Positions 3,592 through 64,000 of a stretch of DNA of 64,000 nt are shown here, in pieces. Position 1 is the first letter of the stretch; every line of letters starts with the position of its first letter. The position numbers and the translations under genes were made by a program. The notes beneath the pieces are model-generated. The model saw only the letters and a program-made list of their open reading frames with translations, ran no database searches and was not told the origin of the DNA. Origin of the DNA: Diphasiastrum complanatum (Eukaryota > Streptophyta > Lycopodiopsida > Lycopodiales > Lycopodiaceae); contig CM055112.1 in assembly GCA_029204225.1 (NCBI GenBank), positions 25,185,922-25,249,921 of the forward strand, written 5' to 3'.

Positions 3592-3993
3592 ATGAAATCT
3601 CAAGTCCAAGAGCCATCAACAAACCCATTTGACAGATGGAAACCCATGCGTTTTGAAGCTCCATACGATCGACCACACTTTCGTGCTGCAGAATCTTCAC
3701 ATGCACGAGCTAATTTAAACGGCGCTTTTGCAAATAATGTTCCGTGTACTGAAAAACGAACTCCCAAGTTACATTTACCTAAGTACGATGACAACACTAA
3801 CACTCAAAGATTTCTTCAACTCTTTGAGAACACATGTGATGTCTATGGCGAGACATCACCAGAAGCCATGGTTTAGCTCTTTTAAATGACCATGATTGAT
3901 CGAGCACGAGAATGGTTTTTTAACCTTGATCGTGAAGATAAACGAGACTGGTCACTCTTGAAGGAAGCCTTCATCAAACGTACCTTCCCTTAA
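3592..3993 (+). pseudogene. Gypsy-type Gag fragment, copy 1
   Basis: An ATG at 3592 opens a frame of 94 codons. After stops near 3873 the same frame continues with RAREWFFNLDREDKRDWSLL and then EAFIKRTFP. That is the plant retrotransposon Gag core (small residue, xxWF, then W..L...F..R) found in Ty3/gypsy capsids. The frame ends at TAA 3991-3993. Exactly there the sequence switches to the SAP-unit upstream region, so only the first third of a Gag is present and there is no nucleocapsid or pol. The sister copy at 45294 has a different stop pattern, so both decayed independently after duplication. Confidence 0.75.
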
Positions 3994-4715
3994 CAACTCT
4001 ACATACACTTGATGAATTTCATCTTATTCTAGAAGATTGTTATGGATGCCATCAAGATTGACCTAAATTTCCTTGCATGGAAATCAAACTGTGAAAATAA
4101 ATGTTGTGAGAAGCAGATGTCAACCTCAATGCTTGGAGTATCAAAGGGTACAATGTCATACATTGTAGTGGAACAACGCATGGACGTTCTGGAACACTAA
4201 TTTTTTAAAAAAAACTTTGAAAATTTTATTAAGAAAACCCTTAATACATTAAAAAACACATGATTAGCAATAATAAGAAAATATACATACTGCCTAAAAG
4301 AATTTATACTAAAAAAGTTTAAAAATAAAAACTGAATAAATCATGTGTTTTATTCAAAAATTTCGAAAAAAAATTTAAGTGCACATTCCAAAAAACCTTA
4401 ATGCTTTTTCAAAAATGCGTTCCGGAACAAGGCCTTGAAATTATTGTGTACATCTATAACTACACAAGTTTCATGATGAAATGGATCATGTAGAGTTTGT
4501 GTGTGAGATGAAGATCTTCTGATGCTCATACATTGCACTCAAGGCATAAATCTTTCTTGTACCTACACGATCAACAATTGCAACCTCACTATTCACATGC
4601 TTCATTGCTCTCAAAAGAATTATTGAGGCCTCCAATCTCTTAAGGGGCCAAAAAGAGACTTTAGGTCTGTCACATGGTCACTCCAACTGAGGGCTCAAGA
4701 CATGGTGGCCACAGC

Positions 4716-4722
4716 TATAAAA
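4716..4722 (+). promoter_or_regulatory. TATA box of SAP unit A
   Basis: TATAAAA inside AGCTATAAAAGG is conserved in place in units A to D, about 405 nt upstream of the start codon here and about 450 nt upstream in C and D. A roughly 50-nt stretch of the leader between CATAGCCGA and GTTCTCTCC present in the other units is deleted in A. Confidence 0.6.
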
Positions 4723-5120
4723 GGCTGACATCCTCAAACACATAATAAGTTGTCAATTGTGATATGAGATGGAGCATAGCCGAGTTCTCTCCTGCTCGCG
4801 ATTTCGTGTTTTTGCCTTGTTGTGTATCTGCTGTGTCTTGAAAGCTATGGCTATAATGCACCTTCTGTCAATGCTTTGGTGAATATTAAGCATAAATCAA
4901 GCTGGAGTTCGTTTCCTTCAATTTTGTCTACTGTCAAAGATCTTGTTGCAATAAACCTTGCCCTTGTTCGTAGTGCATTGTGTCTTCACGTCCAGGAAGA
5001 CACGCAATTAGCGGTGCCAGCAAACCTTTCGTTGCTAGGTCTGCATACACGTCTTCAAAGCGAAAAGGTACCTGTGAAGCAGATAGCTCCCGAAGGGTCG
5101 TGTAATTAAGGCGCAAGTAA

Positions 5121-5658
5121 ATGTCTGGGGAAAGTTGGAAGCATGACAATGATGGAAGGAACCACCAGGCTCCTGAAAGGCCTGTTCTTTGTGCAAATAA
5201 TTGTGGGTAAGGACACAATGAACTTGTGCTCAAAGTGTTACACATCAAATTTTGTCATCAGGCGAGACAACAACTTCACTGAAATGAGTTTTGAGGGAAC
5301 TGCCACGACGTTAGAAACACCAAACTCCGAATTGACATCCTCCCAGCTGGTTGATTTACTAAGGGAAGGTAGAGACGTAGCTACAGTTGCATCACATACT
5401 GAGCTTGCTGACATTGGAAAACCTGCCGCTGGCGTTTCGACAGAAGCTACCACATCTCATGATCCTAGTCGCTGCTTTTCCTGTAGCAAACGCGTTCCAT
5501 TGTATGGGTTAATTAAATGCTGATGCGGAAATGCATTTTGCTCATTGCACCGATACGCTGAAACGCATCAGTGTACAACTAATTACAAAGCGATTGGGCA
5601 CGATGCCATCGCAAAGGCAAATCCTGTAGTCAAGGCTAAAAAGTTAGAGAGAATTTAA
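5121..5658 (+). pseudogene. A20/AN1 zinc-finger (SAP-like) pseudogene, unit A
   Basis: Starts with ATGTCTGGGGAAAG like its sisters and would encode a roughly 182-residue stress-associated protein with an N-terminal A20 finger and a C-terminal AN1 finger. Two lesions kill it. About 11 nt are missing after the second A20 cysteine (near 5204; the sisters read GGTTTTTTGGGAGTAAGG), which shifts the frame. An in-frame TGA stands at 5521-5523 inside AN1 where sister D has CGA. The remainder down to the shared C-terminal LERI and TAA at 5656-5658 is well preserved, so decay is recent. Confidence 0.88.
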
Positions 5659-61375: not shown

Positions 61376-61520
61376 CAGCAGAAGATCTCTACCGCTACCA
61401 CCATTCTGTGTGACAACTTGAGTTGTATTTCACTATCACTGAATCCCAGATTTCATGGCAAATCCTTCAATACTACTCCACAACTGAAATAGTCACAGAC
61501 ATCTTCACCAAAGCGCAATT
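61376..61520 (+). pseudogene. Copia RNase H fragment, second copy
   Basis: Plus-strand pieces LCDNLSCISLSLNPRFHGKS and then TEIVTDIFTKAQF in shifted frames match 44520-44254 on the other strand. Confidence 0.7.
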
Positions 61521-61768
61521 TGTGAAGTGAGATAAAACCTCTTCACGTAAGATGTGAAGTGAGAGAATTTGCGACGTGTTTGTCCGCGTCAACATTCCTG
61601 ATTCGTTGACCGTATATACTATGTATAGTTGTCACAAAAGCTATATAGTTCCAAGTACAACGGCTTACCTAATTAGGTGACAAACATTCAATATAGTTAA
61701 TACACGGATGAAATCTATAAATAGATCATCCAAGCACAGATTATTACGCCTCCATTTTTGGTTGTAAT
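61521..61768 (+). repeat. Copia LTR fragment, second family
   Basis: Matches the reverse complement of 43330-43535 (TTGACCGTATATACTATG and the promoter GAAATCTATAAATAGATC; TATA at about 61715). Most of the LTR's first part is deleted. It ends at a junction with the array-family LTR. Confidence 0.65.
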
Positions 61769-62755
61769 CGAAGAAAGATACCCCGCTATTTTTACTAAAA
61801 TTGAATAAGAATGTTCTTTGTGAGCCTCGACATTAGACGACAACCACTTAAATTCTTCACAAGCACATACTAATTCACAAATTCTGTGGGTAGTAAATTA
61901 GTACCTACTAAAAAAAAGTGAGCAAAACATCTTGCCTTCAGCCTTGTTATGTATTTCAAAGGTCAAATCATTCAATAAATATTGGATACATTAATCCAAA
62001 ACCTAGCTTTCTCCAAACTATTCTAAAATATAAGTAAAAGAAATTGGTACTCCCTTACCTCATATATACAAGGATGAATCATGCAAGTGTATGCCCCATG
62101 AACCATGCACTTTGTATGCCCCTTCCTACTGCACGTAAGTTCCATTAAATAGAAAGACTAACTAACTCTATGACCAAACAATCAACTCTATATTGTGAAA
62201 GTTTGCTAGATATGAGCGTACACGTACTGTCCTCAAACACAACATAGTGACATATGGATACGAAATCCATGCACTCTTATACTCGAATTAAATGAAAATA
62301 GAATAAGGCTAATTTATAAACTAGAGTATCATAGCAAGCGAGTCACAAATCTGCATGGATGTTGCTGTCTAATTTCCAAGGCCCATTACCACACATTAGA
62401 TTTGATTTTGCTAAGATTCAATTATGAGGAGGTATAAGAAACAGATATTGAGATCAAACAATTTATACCTTCAGAGAATTCATGTTGTATTGCACAGAAA
62501 AGAGAGTAAAGCATAGCGGGGAGATATATATATATATATATATATATATATATATATATATATATATATATATATAGAGAGAGAGAGAGAGAGAGAGAGA
62601 GATCGAGCGACAGAGATGTAACTAACTACATTCTTATTAAGTGATTAATGAGAGAAGAGCGAACTGCACATACATAAAGAGTGCGAAGTGGTCTAACCGT
62701 CATGTGACGTTTGGGACCTCTCCTTTAACTAGTTATTTAGTCATGTGTGAATGCG
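61769..62755 (-). repeat. Array-family LTR adjoining SAP unit E
   Basis: Reverse complement of about 36390-37340, with a microsatellite expansion at 62524-62602. It sits 3' of the SAP gene as in units B and C. Confidence 0.75.
62524..62602. repeat. (TA)n(GA)n compound microsatellite
   Basis: About 26 TA units followed by about 13 GA units, at the same LTR position as the short (GA)n in unit B (18212) and the CT tract in unit A (5762). Confidence 0.97.
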
Positions 62756-64000
62756 CACATTGTTGTTCTTAACACTTGTGACCTGAAATCTTCAATGCAA
62801 TGAGAAAATACGATAATCTGTGACTGAAAATTCCGCTATAGATATTGCTCAGGTTTCAATAGAATAAGGAAGCTGTTTAAGCAATATTCAACTGTCAATC
62901 ATTCAAATTCTCTCTAACTTTTTAGACTTGACTACAGGATTTGCCTTTGCGATAGCATTGCGCCCGATCGCTTTGTAATCAATTGTACACTGATGCATTT
63001 CAGCGTATCGGAACAATGAGCAAGATACATTTCCGCATCGGCATTTAATTAACCCATACAGTGGAACGCGTTTGCTACAGGAAAAGCAGTGACTACGATC
63101 ATGAGATGCGATAGCTTCTGTTGAAACGCCAGCGGCATGTTTTCCAATGTCAGCAAGCTCAGTATGTGATGCAACTGTAGCTACGTCTCTACCTTCCATC
63201 AGTAAATCAACCGGCCGGGAGGATGTCAATTCGGAGTTTGGTGTTTCTAACGTCGTGGCAGTTCCCTCAAAACTCATTCCAGTGAAGTTGTTGTCTCGCC
63301 TGATGACAGAATTGGATGTGTAACACTTTGAGCACAAGTTCATTGTGTCCTTACTCCCAATAAACCCACATTTATTCGCACAAAGAACAGGCCTTTCAGG
63401 AGCCTGGTGTTGCCTTCCATCATTGTCATGCTTCCAACTTTCCCCAAACATTTATTTGCACCTTAATTACACAACCCTCCGGGAGCTATCTGCTTCACAA
63501 GTACCTGTTCTGCTTTGAAGGCGTGTACATGGACCTAGCAACGAAAGGTTTGCTGGAACCGCTAATTGTGTGCCTTCTTGCACGTGAATACACAATGCAC
63601 TGCGAACAAGGGCAAGGTTTATTGCAACAAGATCTTCGACAGTAGACTAATTGAAGAAAACGAACTCCAACTTGATTTAAGCTTAATATTTACCAAAGCA
63701 TTGACATAAGGTGCATTATAGCCATAGCTTTCAAGACACAACAGATACACAGCAAGGCAAAAACATGAAATCGCGAGCAGGAGAGAACTGAAACCTTCCT
63801 GCAATGGCTCAGTGAGCAGATATCATAGACGACGCATTCCTTCGGCTATGCTCCATCTCATATCACAATTGACGACTAATTATGTGTTTGAGGGTTTCAA
63901 CCTGTTATAGCTATGGCCACCACGTCTTTAGCCCTCAGTTGGAGTGACCATGTGGCAGACCTAACGTCTCTCATTGGCCCCTTAAGAGATTGGAGCCCTC
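62756..64000 (-). repeat. SAP-carrying repeat unit E (runs off the window)
   Basis: Minus-oriented 3' region, SAP frame, leader (frameshifted near 63645) and promoter. The TATA box is mutated: CTATAACAGG at about 63902-63911 instead of CTATAAAAGG. The unit continues beyond 64000. Confidence 0.85.
62903..63451 (-). CDS. A20/AN1 zinc-finger (SAP-like) protein, unit E
   Basis: An intact 182-codon frame ([11 protein letters not shown]...KKLERI, stop), the expected full length. The A20 finger is complete ([20 protein letters not shown]). The AN1 finger keeps C122, C125, C137, C139, C144, H153 and C155, but the first His ligand is replaced by Phe147 (NVSCSLFRY). The TATA box is damaged as well, so this copy is probably silent or non-functional in its AN1 part. 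The leader shares the long ATG-less frame but is frameshifted. Confidence 0.72.
   Translation of the reverse strand: MFGESWKHDNDGRQHQAPERPVLCANKCGFIGSKDTMNLCSKCYTSNSVIRRDNNFTGMSFEGTATTLETPNSELTSSRPVDLLMEGRDVATVASHTELADIGKHAAGVSTEAIASHDRSHCFSCSKRVPLYGLIKCRCGNVSCSLFRYAEMHQCTIDYKAIGRNAIAKANPVVKSKKLERI

Follow-up and report, generated by a model that had tools for sequence, protein, structure and literature searches.

Does a stress-protein gene that recurs five times within 64 kb, each time joined to pieces of retroelements, belong to a dispersed repeat family, or was it multiplied in place? The question was raised by a 64-kb stretch of the 1.74 Gb Diphasiastrum complanatum assembly (GCA_029204225.1, contig CM055112.1; here C21:25185922-25249921, referred to throughout as the window), in which copies of an A20/AN1 stress-protein (SAP) gene alternate with repeats. 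A first-pass annotation of the window had proposed a dispersed family, spread together with retroelements. The analysis described here favors the second answer: with a probability of roughly 0.85, the window is part of a 1.36-Mb SAP cluster, confined to a single chromosome, that arose through successive rounds of local segmental duplication, both tandem and inverted, and then decayed.

The SAP units and their relatives in the genome

The five units of the window, A to E, are real, with start codons lying exactly at 5121 (+), 19075 (−), 34384 (+), 46873 (+) and 63451 (−). Self-BLAST of the window and alignment confirmed the shared promoter, leader, frame and downstream block that the first-pass annotation had described, as well as a gene-less remnant, R. 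The five units and the remnant are mutually about 87-92.5% identical. Among the units the likeness runs through the promoter, the TATA box (4715, 33933 and 46415 on the plus strand; 19535 and 63910 on the minus strand), a leader of ~460 bases, the frame and the downstream block, and is far beyond chance. Homology extends over 3065-5625 and 44778-47388 for A and D (90.8%) and over 18083-20977 and 35392-32488 for B and C (90.7%). Unit E is 91.3-92.5% identical to B, C and D and 87.2% to A, while the remnant (12329-13053, minus strand) is 89-90% identical to A, B, C and D.

The genome was searched with an A20 profile (150 of 168 candidates scored) and with DNA queries, for each of which the best 40 candidates were scored. 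Of the 36 places found with the profile, 24 fall in the interval 24.77-25.70 Mb of C21, another is on contig C1679, and 11 are elsewhere. The DNA queries included the SAP unit of B (398 candidates), the promoter and leader of D (72) and two repeats that adjoin the gene, namely the AT-rich X block found at some 5′ borders (1227) and the T block found downstream (307). All reported pieces, numbering 60/60, 46/46, 64/64 and 91/91 respectively, fell on C21:24.3-25.7 Mb, hence within ~1.4 Mb, or on C1679. By comparison, a border made of a gypsy-type gag fragment had 39 of its 50 pieces, and a further repeat, the F block, 31 of its 44 pieces, outside the cluster and C1679, on many contigs. Since these two were found genome-wide with the same search tool and the same number of scored candidates, the tool is able to see dispersed repeats, and they serve as a positive control. 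Among the scored pieces, SAP adjoins gag or F only inside this cluster. The gag and F parts come from dispersed elements; as they are dispersed whereas the gene unit, X and T are local, the retroelement pieces look like passengers in a local duplication.

Thus, the dispersed family was not borne out: among the best 40 candidates of each search, the copies are confined to this locus as local duplications, an outcome that the first-pass annotation itself had equated with a local gene cluster. What did hold is the multiplication of the gene with its promoter and attached retroelement pieces into at least five copies, the number found running to dozens and so being far higher than five. One A20 match (L069), considered as a more divergent founder, was rejected upon proving to be another truncated copy joined to T and F sequence. 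No SAP relatives were found in bacterial or archaeal genome contigs or in IMG/VR. C1679, an unplaced contig of 60 kb, is possibly a haplotig, its SAP copy being almost the same in sequence as that at C21:25446934.

Organization of the cluster

Junctions were compared at 30 loci. A gag fragment lies upstream in nine of them (A, D, E, their twins, L025, L031 and L036), preceded by F in six (D, E, their twins, L025 and L031). X lies upstream in 18, although L027 has only a short piece that is not at the junction, and the remaining three have neither. A junction in which a further block, Y, is followed by X and SAP is common to C, its twin, L011, L013 and L014. T follows downstream in 23 loci (inverted in three) and was not found in seven. 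No common outer ends of the SAP unit were found among the 30 loci, and a target duplication was seen only for a later copia insertion. The two kinds of 5′ border recognized by the first-pass annotation are present, gag in A and D and X in B and C; to these can be added E, also of the gag type, with its border outside the window. The downstream piece, described as a fixed long terminal repeat (LTR), is indeed a common block, T, but at most a putative LTR. It contains remnants of a copia-type gag (PF14223, with an E of 7e-5 that does not reach the cut-off of this family), and its reading as a dispersed LTR was rejected on the local distribution of all 91 reported T pieces (best 40 of 307 candidates). 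The remnant, placed at 12.3-13.3 kb, proved to hold promoter sequence only and to run on upstream as an X block to 15148.

The arrangement of the remnant is itself repeated. The same combination of truncated promoter, T piece and X is seen again at two places ~3.08 kb apart, close to 25.417 and 25.420 Mb, where loci L070 and L071 (C21:25414741-25423045) form successive ~3.08-kb units of X, truncated promoter and T piece, with two junction pieces identical over 1099 bases. SAP copies are found in both orientations, 22 plus and 21 minus, in a table of 43 C21 pieces out of the 60 reported for the SAP unit (shorter pieces and the one on C1679 were left out). Three of four stretches fetched from the opposite side of the cluster matched the window in inverted orientation at 99.8-99.9% identity (52980-51480, 30828-29328 and 9594-8433; only matches longer than 150 bases were counted). 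The inverted copies of these three sampled stretches, which span 8.4-53 kb of the window, are located 280-360 kb away. The fourth stretch had no window match above 150 bases and is expected, from the inversion axis, to fall past the window end. Because one of the matches lies inside the copia element, the inverted duplication of a block that takes in 44 kb or more of the window came after the copia insertion, unless the region is misassembled. The inverted block is not colinear throughout, the axis shifting by ~7 kb between B and C. As in local clusters generally, the copies are linked, and flanks that are not part of the gene were duplicated with it.

Age layers

The tree of six window copies is a star, with none of its three inner branches supported and end branches of 0.032-0.05. 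A tree was also built from 28 of the 30 loci, L037 and L038 being dropped as too short and L001, a SAP locus on another contig, standing outside the tree. The base of this tree is unresolved, at a depth of ~0.035 changes per site; good support was obtained for 15 of the 25 inner branches, intermediate pairs are present, and the youngest pairs differ by less than 1%. With a star-like base and later pairs on top, several age layers are present. The tree thus shows that amplification took place in more than one round, as had been suggested. The border types from which that suggestion had been drawn do not support it, however: both types occur among lineages joining at the unresolved base, and the attempt to tell two rounds from them was given up.

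Lesions and substitutions in the SAP frame

The majority frame corresponds to an intact SAP of 182 residues. Within the window, B, D and E have an open frame, but that of A is broken by an 11-base deletion with a stop at codon 138, and that of C by a 13-base insertion with a stop at codon 180. B and E have each lost one AN1 zinc ligand (C144F and H147F, respectively), B has also lost its stop codon, and the last codons of D are replaced by foreign sequence. Pfam comparison of these three placed zf-A20 above the cut-off in all, and zf-AN1 above it in D only, with B and E below; the D protein has matches among PDB chains from both A20 and AN1 proteins. Pairwise differences among the window units are even across regions (promoter 6.1-8.3%, leader 5.8-8.6%, frame 5.2-8.4%, downstream 5.6-8.9%), and codon position 2 varies as much as or more than position 3 in 10 of 10 pairs.

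Plain Nei-Gojobori dN/dS values for the window copies were 0.45-0.87 pairwise and 0.67 when pooled against the majority. Measured against the expectation from the C-to-T-rich noncoding spectrum, the replacement:silent count of these copies (69:32) is in keeping with neutrality (p 0.26). The analysis was extended to 20 unique copies, eight near-identical partners having been dropped from the 28. Private changes numbered 117:37, a ratio of 3.16 vs 2.85 expected after spectrum correction (p 0.65), and for the nine copies that keep a full-length open frame the count was 63:17 (p 0.37). Thus, the corrected test gave no sign of purifying selection on the frame in either the 20 copies or the open subset. 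The zinc domains hold 37 of the 117 replacements vs an expected share of 0.29.

The changes have a marked context dependence. In window noncoding DNA, C-to-T change amounts to 11% at CG, 7.5% at CHG and 2.3% at CHH; over the cluster, the odds of C-to-T at CHG relative to CHH are 3.3x in noncoding sequence (p 1e-10) and 2.4x in the frame (p 1e-4). A CHG excess of this kind is the trace left by plant transposon methylation. Judging from this pattern, the copies may have been silenced by CG and CHG methylation, and they appear to decay like silent transposon DNA.

Origin of the cluster and alternative explanations

Outside the cluster, two SAP loci, L001 and L002, were looked at from among the 11 A20 places. 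The nearer is L001 on C22, an intact gene with an open frame 73% identical over its length, with dN 0.26 and dS 0.45 relative to the cluster majority. Its DNA likeness covers the frame and ~50 bases before it, the promoter not being recognizably shared. In the promoters of A to D there are three or four TTCnnGAA palindromes per copy (only 100 bases of the E promoter are in the window), which we take to be a heat-shock-like motif; since the copies share descent, these palindromes amount to one observation. We propose as founder an A20/AN1 gene whose promoter was heat-shock-like and which lay among older repeats, F and gag on one side and T on the other, with X in a second form. A brief phase of repeated copying would have followed, the probable route being either unequal recombination between the flanking repeats or copying between them during replication. 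The copies would then have been silenced, through the CG and CHG methylation suggested by the mutation pattern, and have lost constraint, while the duplication of further blocks would have continued until very recently.

Several points weigh against this scheme. The duplication mechanism itself was not seen, and stepwise duplication leaves a near-star base less commonly than a burst of transposition does. With 40 candidates scored per DNA search, weak or short copies may exist elsewhere, and misassembly may lie behind some of the near-identical inverted copies. The Nei-Gojobori ratios lie below 1 and become neutral only once the C-to-T-rich spectrum is allowed for. Stops number 5 vs 12.2 expected (share p 0.11), frameshifts occur at 0.76 vs 1.31 per kb (frameshift vs in-frame p 0.68), and the rate of change in the frame is 0.85 times that of noncoding sequence (p 0.006). 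The lower numbers of stops and frameshifts and the slower frame leave room for some constraint during part of the history, be it on early copies or on a small number of copies.

A functional cluster under selection, with many protein-making copies, could account for the last set of observations, namely the deficit of stops, the slower frame and the dN/dS values below 1 in window pairs, as well as for the nine of 20 unique copies that are open over their full length. Such a cluster is nevertheless improbable, as the replacement:silent counts fit spectrum-corrected neutrality in all 20 copies and in the nine open ones alike, the replacements falling in the zinc domains (37/117) stand against an expected share of 0.29, zinc ligands are lost in B and E, and CG/CHG decay extends into the frame. 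Could a mobile element have carried the gene instead, by retrotransposon transduction, in a Helitron or by Pack-type capture, and spread it by transposition? Among the scored candidates, no copy was reported outside the 1.36-Mb interval and the one unplaced contig; the 5′ borders are of two main kinds, and no outer ends common to the 30 loci were found; and the dispersed gag and F sequences occur on many contigs without any scored SAP piece. These results make such an origin very unlikely, even though retroelement pieces flank the copies on one or both sides and both the near-star tree base and the transposon-like mutational decay are what it would lead one to expect. Helitrons are marked by a 5′ TC, a 3′ CTRR with a hairpin and insertion between A and T. 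The outer X end in A and R, inspected by eye, reads A then TC, presumably as at Helitron 5′ ends, although the likeness is weak; no Helitron 3′ end was identified by eye, no systematic scan having been made.

That much of the cluster is an artefact of assembly (haplotigs or false duplications) is more doubtful still. The inverted block at 99.8-99.9% identity and the near-identity of the C1679 copy to its C21 counterpart would be in keeping with it; the five window units, however, differ by ~5-9% in each region compared and carry separate lesions, so that an artefact could explain the youngest pairs only. A more speculative idea, which we regard as a long shot, is that the cluster is a heterochromatic macro-array. 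Inverted SAP units would give rise to small RNAs and to methylation silencing the array in cis, the heat-shock-type promoters would release transcription under stress, and a protein-coding gene would thereby have turned into the unit repeated in a silent domain that responds to stress.

Comparison with known systems

Local tandem or segmental gene clusters with pseudogenes occur in plant gene families. The SAP cluster resembles these in that its copies are linked, lie in both orientations, were duplicated together with their flanks, fall into several age layers and include many disabled members; it differs in that the spectrum-corrected test shows no purifying selection on amino acids among the tested copies, and in that repeats, X and T, were amplified with the gene. 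Within the plant SAP family, the cluster shares the A20 and AN1 domains and has a relative in L001 on C22. Published surveys give 17 genes on ten chromosomes for potato (PMC9398024) and 12 genes for cucumber (PMC7154871). Here the distribution is different, the scored A20 places being 11 elsewhere, 24 in one cluster and one on C1679.

Gene capture by transposable elements is exemplified by retrotransposon transduction (maize Bs1, tomato Rider), Pack-MULEs and Helitrons. The SAP cluster has in common with these that a host gene is joined to retroelement pieces and multiplied. In such captures, the host sequence moves together with the element or within it (PMC13317346). In the case at hand, by contrast, no unlinked copy was reported among the best 40 of 398 (unit) and 40 of 72 (promoter and leader) candidates, and no common element ends were found among the 30 loci. 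No comparable SAP cluster was found in the open-licence papers searched; the cluster is of a known kind at an unusual scale. A gene-carrying repeat that seems dispersed when seen through a 64-kb window is thus a megabase-scale local amplification with retroelement passengers. With one stress-protein gene present in ~20 copies that can be told apart and that change at a neutral ratio under what would be methylation, the cluster offers a natural series for the study of pseudogene decay and local duplication. It also carries a warning for annotation: such copies are not to be counted as functional SAP genes.

Layout of the window

Unit A is bordered by a minisatellite and gypsy-type gag fragment (3065..3979, plus strand) that is 93% identical to the border of D; its core of promoter, leader, broken SAP frame and 3′ end occupies 3980..5718 (plus) and is followed by a T-block piece (5719..5873, plus), identified, like the next T pieces, by self-BLAST. 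At the join lies a truncated X block, inverted relative to A (5875..7638, minus; 91.0% identical to 13440-15148), then a second T piece (7639..7935, minus), with the same junction in L070 and L071. A copia-type retroelement was later inserted at the remnant/T junction (7936..12328, minus), with a 5-base target duplication, CTTTA; in L070 and L071 the junction is uninterrupted. The element has TG...CA ends and end pieces (7935-8402 and 11591-12059) that are 98.7% alike. It sits exactly at the pre-existing breakpoint between truncated promoter and T, and part of it is also found in the inverted copy. Beyond it, R consists of a SAP promoter ending before the TATA box (12329..13053, minus), in the same truncated form as in L070 and L071, and of the longest X copy in the window (13054..15148, minus).

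A T-block array (15658..18409, minus) lies downstream of B, whose core (18410..20275, minus) contains promoter, leader, an open frame at 19075-18515 and the 3′ end; its 5′ border is an X piece (20276..20977, minus), with a Y block further upstream (21818..22618, minus; 92.5% identical to 31584-32389). On the 5′ side of C are the corresponding Y block (31584..32389, plus) and X piece (32390..33202, plus). The core of C, with promoter, leader and the frame bearing the 13-base insertion, spans 33203..35065 (plus) and leads into a T-block tandem array with periods of about 1.75 and 2.03 kb (35066..42764, plus). Next come an F block, a dispersed repeat of ~1.7 kb (42780..44501, plus), and the minisatellite and gypsy-type gag fragment that borders D (44514..45681, plus; PF03732, E 1.4e-4, just under its cut-off). 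The D core occupies 45682..47388 (plus), with foreign sequence in place of the C-terminal codons from 47389. At the right end, F-block pieces (61401..61745, minus) and a T block (61789..62842, minus) lie downstream of E, whose core (62843..64000, minus), with its open frame at 63451-62903 and leader, runs past the window to a gag/F border.

The leader contains an open frame, with a hydrophobic stretch at its start, of 118 codons in B (19447-19094; without Pfam match) and 106 codons in D (46503-46820); it is shorter in C (81 codons) and E (67 codons). The 14 kb between D and E (47389-61400) has few matches within the window; a 114-codon frame just past the breakpoint of D (47474-47818) is without Pfam match. 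No tRNA or Rfam matches were found in the window. Long CT/GA and TA microsatellites are present at 15244-15332, 15972-16136, 56975-57046 and 62576-62618, and those lying at some block junctions of the cluster are possible breakpoints.

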